From positions 1 to 29,592 of IMG/VR virus record IMGVR_UViG_3300042400_000168: 29,592 nucleotides of DNA; one strand, given 5' to 3'. The notes beneath the pieces were generated by a model, which was given only the letters and a program-made list of their open reading frames with translations, was not told where the DNA came from and made no database searches. The translations under genes were made by a program, and so were the position numbers. The stretch comes from a virus. Of this stretch, positions 4,307 through 23,658 are shown one piece after another; position 1 is the first letter of the stretch, and each line of letters begins with the position of its first letter.

Positions 4307-4331
4307 CCTCCCTTCGGGGAGGTTTTTTTTT
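4307..4331 (+). terminator. Rho-independent terminator
   Basis: CCTCCC (4307-4312), TTCG loop, GGGAGG (4317-4322), followed by nine T (4323-4331). The UUCG tetraloop with a GC stem makes this a strong terminator, separating the SSB-like gene from the helicase operon. Confidence 0.88.
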
Positions 4332-7844: not shown

Positions 7845-7857
7845 TCCTCTTTTTTTT
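7832..7857 (+). terminator. Rho-independent terminator overlapping a stop codon
   Basis: AGAGGG (7832-7837) pairs with TCCTCT (7845-7850, one G-U pair) around a 7-base loop that holds the TAG stop, followed by a run of T (7850-7857). It ends the operon that began at the helicase. Confidence 0.65.
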
Positions 7858-7867
7858 ATTTATTTTT

Positions 7868-7899
7868 TTTGGTTGTTTAAAACTTTTGCTTTATTTTTG
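7868..7899 (+). promoter_or_regulatory. Bacteroidota-type promoter (TTTG-20-TATTTTTG)
   Basis: TTTG (7868-7871) and TATTTTTG (7892-7899) are 20 bases apart, with the -7 box identical to that at 3666. The leader contains ACCAATCAG (7913-7921) directly against the ATG at 7922. Confidence 0.65.
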
Positions 7900-12649: not shown

Positions 12650-13234
12650 ATGCAAAGAGCAACAATCGGTACAATCATACCAAACCCCAAGAATCCAAGA
12701 ATCATAAAGGATGACAAGTTCAAGAAGCTTGTAAAGTCCATACAGGAGTTCCCACAGATGCTTGAGCTGCGCCCAATCGTAGTAGATAGCAATATGGTAG
12801 TGCTTGGGGGGAATATGCGCCTTAAGGCTTGCATAGCCGCAGGACTGAAGGAAGTACCCATTATTGTTGCGGACCAACTGACGGATGCGCAGAAGGATGA
12901 ATTCATAATCAAAGACAATGTAGGCTTTGGTGAATGGGATTGGGACTTGCTTGCCAACGAGTGGGAGGTAAAGGATTTGTTTAATTGGGGAGTAGATATT
13001 CCATCGGCATATTTTGACGATGACAAAGAGCCTGAGTTTGACAAGGATATGCTTGACGAGGCTCTTGATGGATACATAAACTCAAAGGTCAAGCAGATAA
13101 CCCTGTATTTTGACAACCAACAATACGAGTATGTCCTCCAAAAACTTGAGGGCATTGCAAAAGAAAATCAATTAGAAAGCAATACAGACGTAATTATCTA
13201 TTTACTTGAAAGCAATAGCAATAATCCCAAGTAA
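12650..13234 (+). CDS. ParB/Srx-fold domain protein
   Basis: 194 residues. The N-terminal ~75 residues follow the ParB-N pattern: I-x-PNPKNPRIIKDD, K-F-K-K-L-V-K-S-I-x-E-F, then LRPIVVDSNMVVLGGNMRLK, where GGNMR replaces the usual G-E/D-R-R block, and GLKEVPIIVA. The next segment (QKDEFIIKDNVGFGEWDWDL) is common in phage ParB-like proteins found with DNA-modifying enzymes. The last ~60 residues (KVKQITLYFDNQQYEYVLQK) form a second small domain. It is not a partition protein in the classical sense, since no HTH is evident. Phage ParB-like proteins often sit with base-modification genes. It overlaps the TAGT gene by 29 bases. Confidence 0.75.
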   Translation: MQRATIGTIIPNPKNPRIIKDDKFKKLVKSIQEFPQMLELRPIVVDSNMVVLGGNMRLKACIAAGLKEVPIIVADQLTDAQKDEFIIKDNVGFGEWDWDLLANEWEVKDLFNWGVDIPSAYFDDDKEPEFDKDMLDEALDGYINSKVKQITLYFDNQQYEYVLQKLEGIAKENQLESNTDVIIYLLESNSNNPK

Positions 13235-13922
13235 GCAACGACCTGATGTATTTCAGAAAGTCTGCCGACCCTTTGTTGACTCATTGGGAATTGATACAAT
13301 CGTTATATTAGAAAAGGAGGACTACGAAAAGTATGACTACCCAAACAAACTAATGCTTGAAAGAAGCAATGCAGGTATTTCGTATGCGTTGTCGGAAGGT
13401 AAAAAGTACGCGGAGCAAAACGGCTATGACATTATTTTTAAGATAGACGATGACGTTTCGGCAGTTGGAAATATATCTGAAGACCTGCAGGATATGCTTG
13501 CATACTTTTCAAAACATAAGTCGTTAGGTGCCATTGTGTTCCCTTATGACTTCGAGTTTTATGCAAAAAGCAAGAAGCTATTTACGCACATAAACAAAAG
13601 AGTGCAAACTTGCTATTTAATTAGAACCTCCTCCTTTAGGCCTCGTGAGGATGTAAATACATTTGAAGACTTTTATCAGTTCTTCCAAATGGTAAACAAT
13701 AATGAGTTTACTTTATTCTGCGCACGGCACGCTATAAAGTGTAAACCCGTTGGCAGCGGAGCAGGCGGTCATCAAGCATTTGACAGAAAGCAACAGGCGG
13801 CAAATGAAATAAAGATATTTCAATCCATTGACCCAACTGTTAACGTAATTGTTAAGGAAGATAAAAGATGGTACTATGAACCCAAACTTGTAGGGGAGCA
13901 ATACAAGTCAAAGAAATTATGA
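13206..13922 (+). CDS. TET-associated glycosyltransferase (TAGT-like, GT-A fold)
   Basis: The start is TTG 13206; no ATG occurs before residue 50. 238 residues. It opens with AIAIIPSKQRPDVFQKVCRP, the GT-A first strand and 'S-x-x-R' helix, then NAGISYALSEGKKYAEQNGY, and the metal/nucleotide-sugar motif IIFKIDDDVSAV (D81-D83). A C-terminal GAGGHQAFDR stretch is a candidate acceptor-side loop. The gene is joined by an ATGA overlap to a TET/JBP dioxygenase. This pairing is the reason the TAGT family was named and predicted to put sugars on oxidised pyrimidines. The reaction is inferred from that association; sugar and base are unknown. Its AT-content is raised like that of the TET gene. Confidence 0.78.
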   Translation: MKAIAIIPSKQRPDVFQKVCRPFVDSLGIDTIVILEKEDYEKYDYPNKLMLERSNAGISYALSEGKKYAEQNGYDIIFKIDDDVSAVGNISEDLQDMLAYFSKHKSLGAIVFPYDFEFYAKSKKLFTHINKRVQTCYLIRTSSFRPREDVNTFEDFYQFFQMVNNNEFTLFCARHAIKCKPVGSGAGGHQAFDRKQQAANEIKIFQSIDPTVNVIVKEDKRWYYEPKLVGEQYKSKKL

Positions 13923-14815
13923 AACGCATAGACCTTGAGCGCAAGCCAATAGACAAGGATAAGTTCAGGAAACGAACTGCTTTGCTTTCGGATGTAAACA
14001 CAACAATCAAAGAAGACTGCATTATTTATGTCAACAACGAACCTGTTGTCTTTTACAAAAAATTAGAAACCGACACTTCTGCTTTGCGGTGGGCAGTTAA
14101 AAATCAGAAATACTCAACGGGCAAAAGAAGCAGAGGACTTGAATCAACATCCAATATATTCGGATACTCCCCAAGAATTGCAATGCGCCACGACTATTGC
14201 ACCGTTACGGCAATGGCTAAAAACTACCCGAAGCAACATTACATAATTACAAACTTCGTAAGTGAGTTGGTTGACTACTACAAAGAGTACTTCCCTCAGC
14301 AATACGAACACCACACAGAAACTGTTAAGGAACGGGTGATGAGTGATTGGACAATAGGAGCATCACCATTTACAAGTGGCATAGTAAATAAAAACAATCA
14401 GCTTAAATATCACTATGATGCAGGGAACTTCAAAGGAGTGCTTTCAAATATGGTTGTATTCAAAAGCGACATCATTGGTGGTCACCTTGTAATTCCCGAG
14501 TTAGACATTGCTCTTGAGGTTGCGGACAACACCTTAACAATTTTCAACGGACAAGATATTCTTCACGGGGTATCTGACATACAATACAAAAACGATTCAT
14601 CGTACAGGTATTCTGTTGTTTACTATTCCCTTGAGCAAATGTGGAAGTGCGAACCTTTGGATGGTGAGATAAAGAGAATCCGTAAGGTAAAAACAGAACG
14701 AGAGAAAAAAAGATTAGACCCTGTTCATATGGATTCTTTGAAAAAAAGACAAGAGGAACTGAAGTCATATTCTGATAAAGAATTTTTTAAATCAGCAGAG
14801 AAGAATGACAAGTAG
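13919..14815 (+). CDS. TET/JBP-family 2-oxoglutarate, Fe(II)-dependent DNA base dioxygenase
   Basis: 298 residues, ATGA overlap with the TAGT gene. The double-stranded beta-helix is clear in the C-terminal half: iron ligands H165-Y-D167 in LKYHYDAGN, distal H216 in GQDILHGV, and R230 in SYRYSVVYYSLEQMW, the likely 2-oxoglutarate salt bridge. Between them FKGVLSNMVVFKSDIIGGHL and IALEVADNTLTIFNGQD match phage TET/JBP proteins, followed by a charged helical tail (KRIRKVKTEREKKRLDP). Such enzymes oxidise 5-methylcytosine or thymine in DNA, often to hydroxymethyl forms that are then glycosylated. All predicted catalytic residues are present, so activity is expected. Which base it uses cannot be told here. 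It overlaps the small terminase gene by 11 bases. Confidence 0.88.
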   Translation: MKRIDLERKPIDKDKFRKRTALLSDVNTTIKEDCIIYVNNEPVVFYKKLETDTSALRWAVKNQKYSTGKRSRGLESTSNIFGYSPRIAMRHDYCTVTAMAKNYPKQHYIITNFVSELVDYYKEYFPQQYEHHTETVKERVMSDWTIGASPFTSGIVNKNNQLKYHYDAGNFKGVLSNMVVFKSDIIGGHLVIPELDIALEVADNTLTIFNGQDILHGVSDIQYKNDSSYRYSVVYYSLEQMWKCEPLDGEIKRIRKVKTEREKKRLDPVHMDSLKKRQEELKSYSDKEFFKSAEKNDK

Positions 14816-15152
14816 TGACATCCATAAAAAGGCAATGCTTGATGCGTTGGAGAAATCTCTCGGGGTAGTTACGTCTGCTTGCAAAAGCGTTGACCTGTCA
14901 AGGCAAACGCATTACCGATGGATGCAAGAGGACAAAGAATACAAAGCAGCAGTCGAAGAACTATCAGACGTAGCCATTGACTTTGCAGAGAGCCAACTGC
15001 ACAAGCAGATAAAGGAGGGCAACTCAACCGCTACTATCTTCTTTCTAAAGACCAAAGGCAAGAAGCGTGGGTACGTGGAACGCCAAGAGGTAGACGTATC
15101 TTCGGGCAAGCTATTTCAAATTGAGGTGCTTGGCGAAGATTCAGACCAATAA
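14805..15152 (+). CDS. terS: Terminase small subunit-like HTH protein
   Basis: 115 residues. The N-terminal part is a helix-turn-helix: KKAMLDALEKSLGVVTSACK, then VDLSRQTHYRWMQEDKEY. A helical oligomerisation part follows (FAESQLHKQIKEGNSTATIF) and ends FFLKTKGKKRGYVERQEV. The 'F-x-L-K-T/K-x-x-x-K-R-G-W/Y-x-E-R' ending is a well-known small-terminase signature. It recognises packaging sites on phage DNA and works with the large subunit encoded by the overlapping next gene. If bases near the packaging site carry TET/TAGT modifications, recognition may depend on them; this is a suggestion only. Confidence 0.82.
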   Translation: MTSSDIHKKAMLDALEKSLGVVTSACKSVDLSRQTHYRWMQEDKEYKAAVEELSDVAIDFAESQLHKQIKEGNSTATIFFLKTKGKKRGYVERQEVDVSSGKLFQIEVLGEDSDQ

Positions 15153-16287
15153 AGTATATAACCACCTAAAGCGCAGCGACAAGAAGATAGTCGTTGAGCA
15201 GGGCGGTACTCGTAGCGGAAAGACTTACAACATCCTGCTATGGGTAATTTTCTATTATAGCACACGAGAAACCAACAAGACCATCACCATCTGCCGTAAG
15301 ACGTTCCCTTCGCTTCGTGCTTCGGTGATGCGGGACTTCTTTGAGATACTTCGTGCCAACGACCTGTACAACGAGAGCTACCACAACAGGTCAAGCCACG
15401 AGTATTATCTGAATGGCAACCTTGTGGAGTTCATAAGCCTTGACCAACCGCAGAAAATACGAGGGCGCAAGCGCAACCTCCTGTACATTAACGAAGCCAA
15501 CGAGCTGACGTTTGAGGATTGGCAGCAGCTTATAATGCGGACCGAAGACAGGGCAATCCTTGACTACAACCCTTCGGATGCGTTCCATTGGATTTACGAT
15601 AAGGTGGTAACCCGTGATGACTGCGACTTTTTTCAGACCACGTACCTTGATAACCCGTTCTTGGATGCCTCAATTGTTGAGGAGATAGAGAGGCTGCAAC
15701 ATACGGACAATGACTATTGGAGAATCTACGGACTCGGAGAACGTGGTATGAGCCGAGCCACCATCTTCCAATACGGGCAGGCAGAGATACCAAGCGATGC
15801 CACGCTCTTATGTCACGGGATGGACTTCGGGTACACCAACGACCCCACCGCACTTGTGGCGGTGTATAAGTCGGGGGACAATCTTTATGTGGATGAGCTT
15901 ATTTACCGCACGGGTATGACCAACCCCGACATCAGCAACGTACTTGCCTCTCTTGGCCTTGATAGACGCACGGAGGTATTTGCTGACTCTGCTGAACCCA
16001 AATCTATTGAGGAGCTGCATCGTATGGGATGGAACGCGAAACCCACGCAGAAGGGCGCAGATAGCGTCATAGTGGGTATTGACGTACTGAAGCGGCACAA
16101 GCTATTCGTAACCCCACGAAGCAGCAACCTAATCAAGGAACTTCAGAACTACAAGTGGGTAGAAGACAAGAACGGCAACCTGCTCAACAAACCGATAGAC
16201 GCATTTAACCACGCCATTGATGCGCTCAGATATGCTACTTACAACAAACTAAGCCGCCCTAACTTTGGCAGGTATGCCATACGTTAA
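15121..16287 (+). CDS. terL: Terminase large subunit (PBSX/Terminase_3-like)
   Basis: 388 residues from TTG 15121; TTG 15130 is another possible start, and no ATG lies near. Walker A is GGTRSGKT (28-35), Walker B LLYINEAN (120-127) with E125 as the catalytic Glu. The RNase H-like nuclease triad is D235 (HGMDFGYTNDPTAL), D289 (EVFADSAEPKSI) and D367 (NHAIDALRYA). Length and layout match PBSX-type TerL proteins. It pumps DNA into the procapsid and cuts concatemers. It overlaps the small subunit gene by 32 bases and starts the structural region. Confidence 0.93.
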   Translation: MRCLAKIQTNKVYNHLKRSDKKIVVEQGGTRSGKTYNILLWVIFYYSTRETNKTITICRKTFPSLRASVMRDFFEILRANDLYNESYHNRSSHEYYLNGNLVEFISLDQPQKIRGRKRNLLYINEANELTFEDWQQLIMRTEDRAILDYNPSDAFHWIYDKVVTRDDCDFFQTTYLDNPFLDASIVEEIERLQHTDNDYWRIYGLGERGMSRATIFQYGQAEIPSDATLLCHGMDFGYTNDPTALVAVYKSGDNLYVDELIYRTGMTNPDISNVLASLGLDRRTEVFADSAEPKSIEELHRMGWNAKPTQKGADSVIVGIDVLKRHKLFVTPRSSNLIKELQNYKWVEDKNGNLLNKPIDAFNHAIDALRYATYNKLSRPNFGRYAIR

Positions 16288-16308: not shown

Positions 16309-17031
16309 ATGAAACTCTTTGTACCCAATCAAATGAACGAGATAAAACTCGTTGACTACCAAAAGTTCATACGTCTTGAAGGCGATGAGGAGTTCCTTTC
16401 ACGGAAGGCAATAGAAATCTTTTGTGGGTTGTCTATGAATGTCATATTGCAGATGAAGGCCTCAAGCCTTGCCAAGACCTCAGCAGTACTATCAAAGGCA
16501 TTCGCTGAAAAGCCAACCTTAATACAAAGATTCACATTGGGCAATACCGAGTTTGGGTTTATACCTTCTCTTGATGAAATCACCGTTGGCGAACTGCACG
16601 ACATTGATGAATACATATCTGATATGCAGACTATGCATAAAGCAATGGCGGTATTGTATCGCCCTGTAATCGCAAGAGTCGGCAATAGGTACGACATTGA
16701 GTCTTATGAGGGTTCTGCTAAATACGCAGAGCAAATGCAACAAGCACCCCTTGATGTGGCAATAGGAGCAATGGTTTTTTTTTGGACTTTAGGAAAAGAT
16801 TTGTCGCACGTTTTCCTGAAATCTTTAGCGACCGAGAGTCCGATGAATTTAGTCCCGCTAATCAATTTTCTAAAAAGTGGGGTTGGCTACCCATATACCA
16901 CCAACTTGCAGGCGGAGATGCTCTTAAATACGACCAAGCGTCAAAGCTTACCGCAGGCTTCGCCTTCACGTTCCTCACTTTTGAAAAAGACAGGCTCGAA
17001 ACCGAAAACAGAATCCTTGAAAAACAACTAA
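16309..17031 (+). CDS. Tail assembly chaperone candidate, zero-frame product (240 aa)
   Basis: Zero-frame product of 240 residues. The first ~157 look like normal coding sequence (EGDEEFLSRKAIEIFCGLSM, TLGNTEFGFIPSLDEITVGE, PLDVAIGAMVFF) and have a helical, acidic character typical of the gpG-like part of siphovirus tail chaperones. Codons 156-158 read GTT TTT TTT inside a run of nine T. After this the zero frame goes on, but ends in a Ser/Lys/Pro-rich stretch (SLPQASPSRSSLLKKTGSKP) that looks non-native, while the -1 frame becomes protein-like. I infer that a -1 shift makes the longer partner. Tail chaperones usually sit just before the tape measure; this one is about 5 kb upstream, so the identification is moderate. 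Confidence 0.6.
   Translation: MKLFVPNQMNEIKLVDYQKFIRLEGDEEFLSRKAIEIFCGLSMNVILQMKASSLAKTSAVLSKAFAEKPTLIQRFTLGNTEFGFIPSLDEITVGELHDIDEYISDMQTMHKAMAVLYRPVIARVGNRYDIESYEGSAKYAEQMQQAPLDVAIGAMVFFWTLGKDLSHVFLKSLATESPMNLVPLINFLKSGVGYPYTTNLQAEMLLNTTKRQSLPQASPSRSSLLKKTGSKPKTESLKNN
16776..16782 (+). other. Putative -1 slippery heptamer T TTT TTT
   Basis: The run of nine T at 16775-16783 gives, in the zero frame, the heptamer T_TTT_TTT (16776-16782), the X_XXY_YYZ form needed for simultaneous -1 slippage. The -1 frame has a stop at 16752-16754 and is then open to 17039, with no ATG near its beginning. Reading it by a shift gives a 243-residue fusion. A T10 run, if the tract was miscalled, would fuse the frames outright. 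Confidence 0.55.
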
Positions 17032-17039
17032 AACGATGA
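16782..17039 (+). CDS. Tail assembly chaperone, -1 frame extension (gpT-like)
   Basis: About 85 residues in the -1 frame. They read like a real domain: RKRFVARFPEIFS, then NQFSKKWGWLPIYHQLAGGD, LKYDQASKLTAG and a charged C-terminal helix (ETENRILEKQLKR). The 'F-x-K-K-W-G-W...I-Y...L-A-x-G-D' motif is typical of tail proteins from Bacteroidota phages. The stop (17037-17039) makes an ATGA overlap with the next gene at 17036, which the zero-frame stop (17029-17031) does not, supporting translation of this frame. A TTG at 16782 could also serve as a direct start, giving a separate small protein instead of a fusion. Confidence 0.6.
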   Translation: MDFRKRFVARFPEIFSDRESDEFSPANQFSKKWGWLPIYHQLAGGDALKYDQASKLTAGFAFTFLTFEKDRLETENRILEKQLKR

Positions 17040-17503
17040 GACAGTTCTACGATATCACCACCAAGATAAAGGATACCCTTGAGGCGAATAGCCAAGTAAA
17101 CGTGGTAACAACAGGGGATGTCTATGACGTTGACCTAAACAAGCAGACCATCTTTCCTTTGGCGCACATTATGGTAAACCAAGCAACATTCGATGGCCAA
17201 GTAGTACGGATGAGTATGAGCCTTATTTGTATGGACTTGGTAGATGAAACCAAAGAGAACCCACGCTTACAGGCAGAGCCTTTCTACGGAACGAGCAACG
17301 TGCAAGATATTCTAAACACGCAGCTTGCGGTAATAAACGATTTAGTTCAAGAATTACGCAGGGGTACCCTATATAAGAACCTTTACCAATTAGACGGTAC
17401 GCCAACTTGCCTGCCTTTTACCGAGAGGTTCGAGAACCTGCTTGCGGGATGGACTGCCACGTTTGACGTACTTCTTTCAAACACAGAAATCAGCGTCTGC
17501 TAA
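17036..17503 (+). CDS. Neck/tail-terminator-type protein (155 aa)
   Basis: 155 residues starting at an ATGA overlap. It begins with an amphipathic helix (MRQFYDITTKIKDTLEANSQ), then beta segments (VNVVTTGDVYDVDL, FPLAHIMVNQATFDG, VVRMSMSLICMDLVDE), a helical stretch (NTQLAVINDLVQELRRG) and a final strand, GWTATFDVLLSN. The order helix, strands, helix, strand and the position before an HK97 gp10-like gene fit a tail terminator (gpU/gp17-like) or head-tail completion protein. No definitive signature is seen. Predicted to cap the tail tube and join it to the head. Confidence 0.55.
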   Translation: MRQFYDITTKIKDTLEANSQVNVVTTGDVYDVDLNKQTIFPLAHIMVNQATFDGQVVRMSMSLICMDLVDETKENPRLQAEPFYGTSNVQDILNTQLAVINDLVQELRRGTLYKNLYQLDGTPTCLPFTERFENLLAGWTATFDVLLSNTEISVC

Positions 17504-18064
17504 ATGCTTCTCCGACAAGATTTTATTCGGGCAAGCCTTGAGAAGTTCGCCAATGGGGTTGTTGAGCAAGCAAGGGCTAACCTTGTTCGTGAAAATAAAA
17601 ACGTAACGGGAAACCTATCTCAGTCCCTGCAATACTACATAGAAGTAAACCCTAATTCAATCGCCCTACGTTGGGAGATGGATGAAACCGCACCATATTG
17701 GAAATTCCAAGACTATGGCGTAAGGGGCAAGACATCTTCAGACAAGGCACCAAATAGCCCGTATAAGTTTGGCACAGGCAGCGGTATGGCAGGTGGCCTT
17801 ACAAGGGCTATCAATGAGTGGGTTAGGGCAAGGCGTTTTCAATTTCAAAGCAGGTCAGCAGGGTCAAAGGGACAATTCTTGAGCTATGACTCTACTGCGT
17901 TTCTAATTAGCCGCAGCATTTATAACAAAGGAATTAGAACTACAAACTTTTTTACTAACCCTTTTAGGTTAAATTTTGAGCAATTACCTGCTGAAATTGC
18001 AGAGGCCTATGCGCTTGATATAAGGGAATTTTTAGAATTTACATTGAAGCAACCAAAGAAATGA
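17504..18064 (+). CDS. HK97 gp10-like head-tail joining/tail completion protein
   Basis: 186 residues, starting one base after the previous stop. Features expected for the gp10 family: an N-terminal helix with Arg/Ala (QARANLVRENKNVTGNLSQS), then a strand IALRWEMDETAPYWKFQDYG with the 'Y-x-x-F/Y-Q-x-x-G' loop, and a Gly-rich insertion (GTGSGMAGGL). A basic region (VRARRFQFQSRSAGSKG) follows. It would fill the connector between head and tail. Somewhat longer than HK97 gp10 itself. The stop overlaps the next start by 4 bases. Confidence 0.65.
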   Translation: MLLRQDFIRASLEKFANGVVEQARANLVRENKNVTGNLSQSLQYYIEVNPNSIALRWEMDETAPYWKFQDYGVRGKTSSDKAPNSPYKFGTGSGMAGGLTRAINEWVRARRFQFQSRSAGSKGQFLSYDSTAFLISRSIYNKGIRTTNFFTNPFRLNFEQLPAEIAEAYALDIREFLEFTLKQPKK

Positions 18065-21515: not shown

Positions 21516-21670
21516 AAACCAAATATGTAAGTTACTTAATAGAGGTGCTTCAGTCGGAGGATTGGTATGGCGTAAGTGCGGCAGTTGATATTGCCAAAGG
21601 AAAATACGCCTTACCAAGAAATTGGGCAGAGGGATTCAAATTGATTAGAAGGGAATGGCAGAAGAAGTAA
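21512..21670 (+). CDS. Small tail-region protein (52 aa)
   Basis: ATG 21512 (ATGA overlap) to TAA 21670, 52 residues, ending 16 bases inside the tape measure gene. It is basic and Trp-rich: LIEVLQSEDWYGVSAAVDIA, then LPRNWAEGFKLIRREWQKK. No family is recognised. Its position directly before the tape measure is where tail assembly chaperones often sit, so an accessory role in tail assembly is possible, although it is far shorter than a typical chaperone. Confidence 0.6.
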   Translation: MKTKYVSYLIEVLQSEDWYGVSAAVDIAKGKYALPRNWAEGFKLIRREWQKK

Positions 21671-23658
21671 ATATCAATATTAATGTTACGTCAAATGTTG
21701 TATCAACAACAAGCGAGGTAACAAAAAAGATTGATGGTATAAAGAAAAGCGCTGAAGGCGCAACTACTGCCCTTGATGAAACGGGTAGTGTTGGCAACGC
21801 TGCCATTAAGCTAATTGACAAAGCAACGGGCGGGCTTGGAACGAAGTTCGTACAAATCATTAAATACTCTAAAGAGCTTGGAACGGGCCTGCTCACTTCG
21901 TTTACGAGTGGGGTCAAGGCAGTAAAAACTTTTGGCACTACGCTTGTAACTGCATTGCGGGGGGGCACCGTAGCGGCAAATACCCTTAAAGGTGCGCTTA
22001 TTGCCACAGGCATAGGGGCGTTGGTGGTTGCCGTAGGCTCACTAATAGCATATTGGGATGACATTAAAGCCGCAATAGGCGGTGCTTCTCAAGAACAAAA
22101 GACCTTACTTAAAGATGCAGAGTCCAACGTAGAAGCGCAAGAATCTGCGGCAGCAGCGTTAGCACTTCAAGAAAACTCACTACGCTTGCAGGGCAAGAGC
22201 GAAAAGGAGATACGCGACCTTAAAGTTCAGCAAACGAATGAAACTATAACTGCGTTAGAGGCTCAGCTTGTTGCGCAGGAGTCTATCAAGAAATCACAGA
22301 TTGAGGCAGCTAAAAGAAATAAGGAAATACTGCAAGCCGCTATACGCGCCATAACACTTCCTGTGGCAGCATTGCTTGGAAGCATTGATTTGATTGGTAA
22401 AGCACTCGGTAAGAACTTTGGTCTTGAGGAGGGGTTTTCGGGCGGGCTCGCTAAACTTGTTTTTGACCCTGAAGAAGTAGCGACTGCTGCCGATGAAACT
22501 ATTGAGGAAACAAAAAAACAACTTGCCACGCTAAAAAGCACACGAGATGGTTTTATAGTTGCCAACAACGCAGAGGCTGCTGCAAATGCAAAAGCAGCTG
22601 CTGACAAGGCTGACAAATCCGCAGCTGATGCACTTGCCAAAGAGAAGGAGCGCCTTGCGGCTCTTGCAGCCCTTCAAAAAGAAACTGCTGACATAATTGA
22701 TGCCAACGAAGAAGCTGCTATCAAAAATGAAGTGGAGCGTGAAAACGCTCGCTTTAAGAACCTACAAGAAAAACTTCAACGTGAGCGTGATGAACAAGTA
22801 AAGGCAGCAGAGGGTGACCAAGTGCTAATTGCCGCTATTAACGCTAAGTACAACGCCTTAGGCGAGCAGGCTACACTAAACCACCTTGCGGCTATAGAGG
22901 GTTTTACAAAAGCATCGGAAGACAAACTAAAGGCGCAAAAGGAGCAGATTGCTAATATCAATATTGGCCTAATTGAAAATGAAACTACCCGAGCCCTTGC
23001 TGCACTTAAATTAAAATATGATGCAGAGTATGCCGCCGCCGAAGGTAATGCCGAACTTCAATTAGCCCTTCAAAAGCAATTTATTTCAGAAGGAGCTGCC
23101 ATTCAAAAGTCCGCAGATGATAAAGCTAAAGATGACAAGCGTAAGCAAACTGCTGAAATAAAAGACCTTGTTGTAGGGAGTGCTACTGCAATCATTGATA
23201 ACTTGCTTTCGTTAAACAACCTTTACGATAAAAATGACGAGGCAGCGGCTAAACGTGCTTTTGAAAGAAGCAAGAAACTACAAATCCTGCAAGCCATTAT
23301 TAATACTGCTTCAGGCATAATGGGTGCGCTTGGCACCCCAAACGTAGGCGATGTTCTTACAGGGGCTAACTTTATTAAAGCAGGCGTTATCGCGGCTACG
23401 GGCGCTGCGCAAATTGCTACTATTGCTGCACAACAATTTGACGCAGGTGGTGGCACCACCCCTGATGCACCGAACGCGCCAAGCGCGCAATCGTTACAAC
23501 CACAATTTAACATCGTAGGTCAAAGTGGAACAAACCAACTTGCGCAAAGCATAGGCGGTCAGTTTGACCAACCCATCCGTGCCTATGTCGTAGGTCAGGA
23601 TGTAACGACCTCACAACAACTACAACGCCAAAGAGTAAGAACCGCAACATTCGGATGA
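21655..23658 (+). CDS. Tape measure protein
   Basis: 667 residues. Typical tape measure composition: long Ala/Lys/Glu/Gln-rich helices with heptad character (about 140-210, 290-500), a central-N-terminal membrane-type segment at about 113-133 (LIATGIGALVVAVGSLIAYW), and an Ala/Gly-rich hydrophobic region at about 550-590 (IINTASGIMGALGTPNVG, AATGAAQIATIAAQ). It sets tail length; at about 0.15 nm per residue this gives a tail near 100 nm, which points to a siphovirus. Repeats of 'ALAALQKETADIID...EEAAIKNE' type are irregular. The stop overlaps the next start. Two ATG codons (21655 and the downstream frame) are not in conflict. Confidence 0.9.
   Translation: MAEEVNININVTSNVVSTTSEVTKKIDGIKKSAEGATTALDETGSVGNAAIKLIDKATGGLGTKFVQIIKYSKELGTGLLTSFTSGVKAVKTFGTTLVTALRGGTVAANTLKGALIATGIGALVVAVGSLIAYWDDIKAAIGGASQEQKTLLKDAESNVEAQESAAAALALQENSLRLQGKSEKEIRDLKVQQTNETITALEAQLVAQESIKKSQIEAAKRNKEILQAAIRAITLPVAALLGSIDLIGKALGKNFGLEEGFSGGLAKLVFDPEEVATAADETIEETKKQLATLKSTRDGFIVANNAEAAANAKAAADKADKSAADALAKEKERLAALAALQKETADIIDANEEAAIKNEVERENARFKNLQEKLQRERDEQVKAAEGDQVLIAAINAKYNALGEQATLNHLAAIEGFTKASEDKLKAQKEQIANINIGLIENETTRALAALKLKYDAEYAAAEGNAELQLALQKQFISEGAAIQKSADDKAKDDKRKQTAEIKDLVVGSATAIIDNLLSLNNLYDKNDEAAAKRAFERSKKLQILQAIINTASGIMGALGTPNVGDVLTGANFIKAGVIAATGAAQIATIAAQQFDAGGGTTPDAPNAPSAQSLQPQFNIVGQSGTNQLAQSIGGQFDQPIRAYVVGQDVTTSQQLQRQRVRTATFG

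Follow-up and report, generated by a model that had tools for sequence, protein, structure and literature searches.

Phage tail genes in which the reading frame shifts are well known, and the G protein of phage lambda terminates a short way past the slip. Chaperone genes of the lambda type are known to rely on ribosomal -1 shifting (PMC5009743), and published transcriptional realignment involves T runs longer than 8 (PMC3711429). We analysed a gene, lying next to a terminase gene in a viral DNA, in which a run of nine Ts separates a shared N-terminal domain from two overlapping endings in different frames. In the part of the literature that we searched, no described case of a second overlapping ending of such size was found. 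The reading that we favour, with a probability of about 0.65, is that this is an overprinted structural gene with two isoforms that works like the lambda G/GT chaperones, most likely through polymerase slippage. The conserved frames and run, and the signature of dual coding, are directly observed.

Layout of the gene and its surroundings

The window, by which we mean the whole stretch of 29,592 nucleotides, is a 29.6-kb IMG/VR virus record carrying terminase, neck-type, tape measure, protease and portal genes. The features considered here are the following.

15121..16287 (+), terminase large subunit gene, the upstream neighbour (PHROG 2, E 8e-46)
16309..16782 (+), N domain, 158 codons common to both products (PHROG 32199, function unknown)
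16775..16783 (+), slippage run of nine Ts, with the in-phase heptamer T_TTT_TTT at 16776-16782
16782..17039 (+), T ending in the -1 frame, 85 codons and a TGA stop at 17037-17039
16783..17031 (+), Z ending in the zero frame, 82 codons and a stop at 17029-17031
17036..17503 (+), next gene downstream, function unknown, with an ATGA overlap between its start and the T stop
17504..18064 (+), Neck1 or HK97 gp10-like gene (PHROG 5, E 6.5e-5; Pfam HK97-gp10_like slightly under the cut-off)
21655..23658 (+), tape measure gene (PHROG 24676, E 6.6e-18)

The zero-frame codons over the run are GTT TTT TTT TGG, and the slippery heptamer that the initial annotation placed in the nine Ts was found in phase. 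Its other statements on the layout also held: the zero-frame ORF (16309-17031) gives 240 aa, while reading the zero frame to 16782 and the -1 frame from there to 17039 gives 158 + 85 = 243 aa. The -1 frame is open from 16755, 21 bases 5' of the heptamer, with no ATG ahead of the run, and the T stop is shared with the start of the next ORF at 17036. The description of the zero frame as open for more than 80 codons is true of the window and its nearest relatives, but not in general, as many close relatives stop at codon 47. The conserved part of Z is approximately its first 47 codons (16783-16923), and the last 35 codons in the window are unconserved and peculiar to its closest relatives. Structures were predicted for N and T as separate models; the fold of N was predicted confidently (pLDDT 93.5), and the T model was weaker.

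The tape measure gene lies approximately 4.6 kb 3' of the two-frame gene, with four genes between them. Of 220 relatives whose sequence extends far enough, 208 have a counterpart of the 17036-17503 gene downstream, and in most relatives the two genes that follow the two-frame gene are both downstream of it. In the isolate Nonlabens phage P12024S the order terminase, two-frame gene, next four genes and tape measure gene is kept as a whole.

Other features of the window were also recorded. ORFs at 12650-14815 match ParB_N, a TET-associated glycosyltransferase family (just under the cut-off) and a Tet_JBP oxygenase domain, and by these matches may form a DNA base hypermodification cassette. The only other T9 run, at 4323-4331, is intergenic and lies 3' of the GC-rich inverted repeat CCTCCC TTCG GGGAGG; it resembles a normal intrinsic terminator. 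An AT-rich segment at 7850-7870, outside the listed ORFs, contains two T8 runs separated by five bases.

Conservation of the run and of the frame relation

With N, with T and with alignments of relatives as queries, we scanned IMG/VR and assembled 283 distinct homologous junctions from IMG/VR contigs and phage P12024S. N and T stood in the -1 relation in all 283. The run was T9 in 266, T10 in 15 (by substitution) and T8 in one (L206), so that 281 of the 282 measured junctions held nine or ten Ts. The -1 open frame had no ATG ahead of the run in 201 of 202 cases, and the T ending was 77-93 codons long. In P12024S, from a marine flavobacterium, a T9 run occupies the equivalent place, the N part is 31.6% identical to that of the window, and the counterpart is annotated as two separate genes. 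Isolate phages P12024S and P12024L both carry T9 or T10. So do seven Bacteroidota genome contigs, including those of the isolates Flagellimonas onchidii and Galbibacter pacificus, and T9 copies were found in two further genomes from a family-wide search. Even a very divergent relative (L041) retains T9.

These observations bear on the suggestion that the run is a homopolymer miscall, or the gene a decayed one, whose true form is a single continuous N-T frame. One added T would indeed join the frames, and homopolymers are prone to error. Nevertheless, the same run and frame relation recur in 283 distinct sequences from many assemblies, in an isolate phage and in bacterial genomes, with a single T8 as the exception, and stops are actively avoided in the zero frame (see below). 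We therefore exclude sequencing error and regard this explanation as having a negligible probability. The expectation in the initial annotation that T10 would simply fuse the frames was not borne out, as the relatives with T10 retain the -1 relation; frames are never fused within the family. Its proposal to align homologues and see which frame is conserved after the run had a clear outcome: both are, with N and T always in the -1 relation.

The family belongs to a large group of Bacteroidota phages, most of them uncultured. Two members (L362 and L365) sit inside long scaffolds of the isolate flavobacteria F. onchidii and G. pacificus, and some of these phages are therefore probably temperate. 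In one contig (L100, 180-662 onward) the T ending becomes unrelated sequence past approximately codon 39, probably by a rearrangement or an assembly join, and it was omitted from later tests. A tblastn search for more phage isolates gave only P12024S and P12024L as credible matches, those in Campylobacter phages being weak (E near 1). The first scan of genome contigs gave no match, and a scan with another alignment gave the seven relatives mentioned above. The divergent L041 used as query returned itself alone, PHROG 166 as a candidate wider family had no match in 201 genomes, and a phylum-wide profile search found one of 396 genomes, already known.

Dual coding in the overlap

The number of zero-frame stops expected if T alone were preserved was obtained by simulation, keeping the T protein and drawing synonymous codons at random. 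Among 123 representatives with N identities below 80%, which share ancestry so that the counts are not independent, 122 were free of zero-frame stops over the first ~47 codons, compared with 20.8 expected. Stops over the first 46-47 codons numbered 0.00-0.03 against an expected 1.5-1.7 (0.03 vs 1.53 per 46 codons). The exception was P12024S, with a zero-frame stop after 25 codons. The third frame was at expectation (4.70 stops observed, 4.75 expected), and in the N domain, used as a control, both alternative frames matched expectation. An independent replication set of 33 representatives fetched later gave 33 of 33 stop-free, against 3.9 expected. Z thus ranged from 25 to 92 codons overall and was at least 47 codons long (47-92) in 122 of the 123; in two still more divergent relatives it measured 40 codons (L369) and 36 codons (L041).

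Synonymous codon conservation was approximately 1.0 of expectation through N, rose exactly at the slip to 1.2-1.84 up to codon 23 of T, the constraint reaching to about codon 24, and fell back to 1.0-1.1 at codons 26-32. A second block of constraint was seen at about codons 35-52 (1.3-1.5 at codons 35-50), with a value of ~1.1 by codon 59. In close pairs, the third-position rate of the -1 frame was 0.146 over codons 2-25, compared with 0.22-0.23 farther on. Zero-frame residues were conserved beyond the demand of T in both raised blocks, the motifs being [YW].LG.[ED]L with YLE, and L.E.LQDL. Only the overlap shows avoidance of stops together with constraint on synonymous sites, with control frames and regions at expectation. 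Taken together with the conserved Z residues, these sequence patterns indicate that both endings, Z and T, are under selection, and the dual coding that the initial annotation had offered as one of two possibilities is supported.

We considered whether N-T alone matters, with Z a by-product held open by an RNA element or by avoidance of early termination before the next gene. The wide range in zero-frame length, the unconserved end of Z in the window and the apparently single-frame distant cousins described below would fit such a view. The hydrophobic and acidic motifs of Z, in contrast, go beyond what T demands and fall in two separate blocks, RNA folding does not exceed that of synonymous shuffles, and the frames have never fused, though one base would suffice. 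We consider it very unlikely that Z is a by-product, and retain the reading in which both endings are selected.

Route of the frame change

RNA polymerase slipping on T9 would yield a share of transcripts with ten Us. The run has the features by which transcriptional slippage is recognised, about nine or more A or T and a conserved length. At least nine Ts were present in 131 of 132 representatives, and a T lost at one flank is compensated on the other side. Where the 5' T was lost (four representatives), three carried an extra 3' T, compared with 9 of 128 others (Fisher P 0.002); where the 3' T was lost (two representatives), both carried an extra 5' T. The nine-T floor is moderate evidence for polymerase slippage, because a T8 relative (L206) exists and because in both frames the residues that flank the run favour Ts.

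Ribosomal -1 slippage on U_UUU_UUU is a close rival, and both processes may act. Were the ribosome alone to make both selected products, two phenylalanine tRNAs would re-pair on U_UUU_UUU; -1 shifting by ribosomes is established for chaperone genes of the lambda type (PMC5009743). An in-phase X_XXY_YYZ heptamer was present in every relative examined, the T8 one included. However, any T9 run automatically holds such a heptamer, which is thus uninformative and does not decide between ribosome and polymerase. Seven Ts would suffice for the ribosome, yet nine or more are kept, with compensation, and no conserved stimulator was seen upstream or downstream. A Shine-Dalgarno-like motif was found in only 10 of 86 cases, and folding z scores in relatives were near 0 on both sides of the run, showing no excess over synonymous shuffles. 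The hosts of these phages are said to have weak Shine-Dalgarno signals. Two candidate stimulators in the window were rejected: AGGAG at 16764-16768, as a Shine-Dalgarno-like element, is not conserved, and a hairpin of AGGAAAA with TTTTCCT after the slip is absent from the predicted minimum-energy fold, with no excess folding over shuffles in relatives. Given the nine-T floor and the lack of a conserved stimulator, we lean towards polymerase slippage, alone or together with the ribosome, as the probable driver of the frame change; that the ribosome acts alone is possible, though we think it the less probable route.

Possible distant cousins and the origin of the endings

The family-wide search also returned two bacterial genomes with single-frame ORFs, 218 and 191 aa long (L373:1015-1668 and L374:1093-1665). 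Each ORF is flanked by a terminase-like ORF and a gp10-like gene and has a T-like C-terminal part, and a long T run is missing from the corresponding position. Based on a modest T match and the gp10-like neighbour, the N part not being confidently alignable, these may be prophage cousins with the T-like end in one frame. Matches to both models, N and T, were also seen for several BFVD proteins 226-267 aa long (for example A0A6J5N0W0 and A0A516L611), and these hint at further one-frame cousins. If this is right, T would be the older ending and Z overprinted on it. The initial annotation had named homologues with both parts in one frame and no slippery run as evidence against its reading. Such cases may exist among very distant prophage cousins, in which only the T-like end is recognisable, and never occur within the family.

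A more specific proposal is that, throughout a large family of Bacteroidota phages, polymerase slippage rather than the ribosome sets the isoform ratio of a chaperone-like gene, and that Z was overprinted on an older T, giving each isoform a selected domain of its own. We put this forward tentatively, at somewhat less than even odds.

Proposed role of the two products

A single gene would give rise to two proteins sharing the 158-aa N domain and differing in their endings, straight reading yielding N-Z and a -1 change at the nine-T run yielding N-T. N-Z would be the commoner product and N-T the rarer one, recruiting tail subunits, in a ratio set by slippage as in lambda G/GT. Production of both proteins, the ratio between them, the identity of the slipping machine and the role as a chaperone are all points that we infer. 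Working like G/GT is our best guess by analogy, since two isoforms set by slippage in a structural module is the logic of lambda-type chaperones (PMC5009743). The conserved gene order with the tape measure gene downstream counts for a chaperone-like role, and the first ORF is joined close to its end, by a conserved frameshift, to a second ORF without its own start, as expected of such genes.

Other features differ from those of the chaperone class, and we do not claim formal membership of the lambda G/GT class. The gene follows the terminase gene instead of directly preceding the tape measure gene, and its unshifted product is not short, running 47-92 codons past the slip in 122 of 123 representatives. 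Neither sequence nor fold similarity to known chaperones was detected: searches of Pfam and PDB sequences gave no credible match for N or T, and fold searches with N gave no relative in the PDB and many uncharacterised viral ones in BFVD, a single weak match being named tail assembly chaperone (E 0.13). The tail-chaperone reading of the initial annotation is therefore plausible by place and logic, but has no match to a known chaperone behind it.

The lack of a match to chaperone families or folds would fit a real two-isoform gene with another structural role, such as connector or neck assembly, rather than tail assembly with the tape measure protein; the gene adjoins the terminase and a neck-type gene and lies four genes ahead of the tape measure gene. 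On the other hand, tail chaperones typically show two-isoform recoding within the structural operon (PMC5009743), and no other small candidate chaperone ORF lies directly ahead of the tape measure gene. We consider another structural role rather unlikely, and continue to favour a chaperone-like one.

Comparison with known systems

If our reading is correct, this would be a clear case in a DNA phage of long, selected, overlapping endings chosen by slippage on nine Ts, a layout better known from RNA viruses. It would make it possible to test whether phage tail assembly can run on polymerase slippage instead of ribosomal frameshifting. In annotation, the T ending is split off as a gene of its own in P12024S, and the N domain is without function in PHROGs.

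Among phage isolates, Nonlabens phages P12024S and P12024L (genes _38/_39 and _40/_41; PHROG 32199) have the same N domain, T9 run, -1 T ending and place after the terminase gene. Their counterparts are annotated as two separate hypothetical genes, and Z in P12024S is only 25 codons long. Potyvirus P3N-PIPO resembles the window gene in that homopolymer slippage gives an alternative ending from a region coding in both frames (PMC7618844), but the virus, gene and polymerase are unrelated. Bacterial genes with transcriptional slippage (Shigella mxiE and spa13; Thermus dnaX) share a run of approximately nine A or T and two-frame products without a strong stimulator (PMC5009743, PMC3711429); unlike the gene described here they are not phage structural genes, and slippage in the window family is inferred. 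Lambda G/GT and other -1 recoded chaperones share with the window gene a common N part, a -1 shift close to the end of that part that leads into a second one, a location in a structural module and, as expected here, two products in a fixed ratio. There is no detectable similarity to lambda G/GT in sequence or fold, and the slip run here is T9. In the window family, moreover, the zero frame stays open for 47-92 codons with a selected ending, and the gene does not lie beside the tape measure gene.
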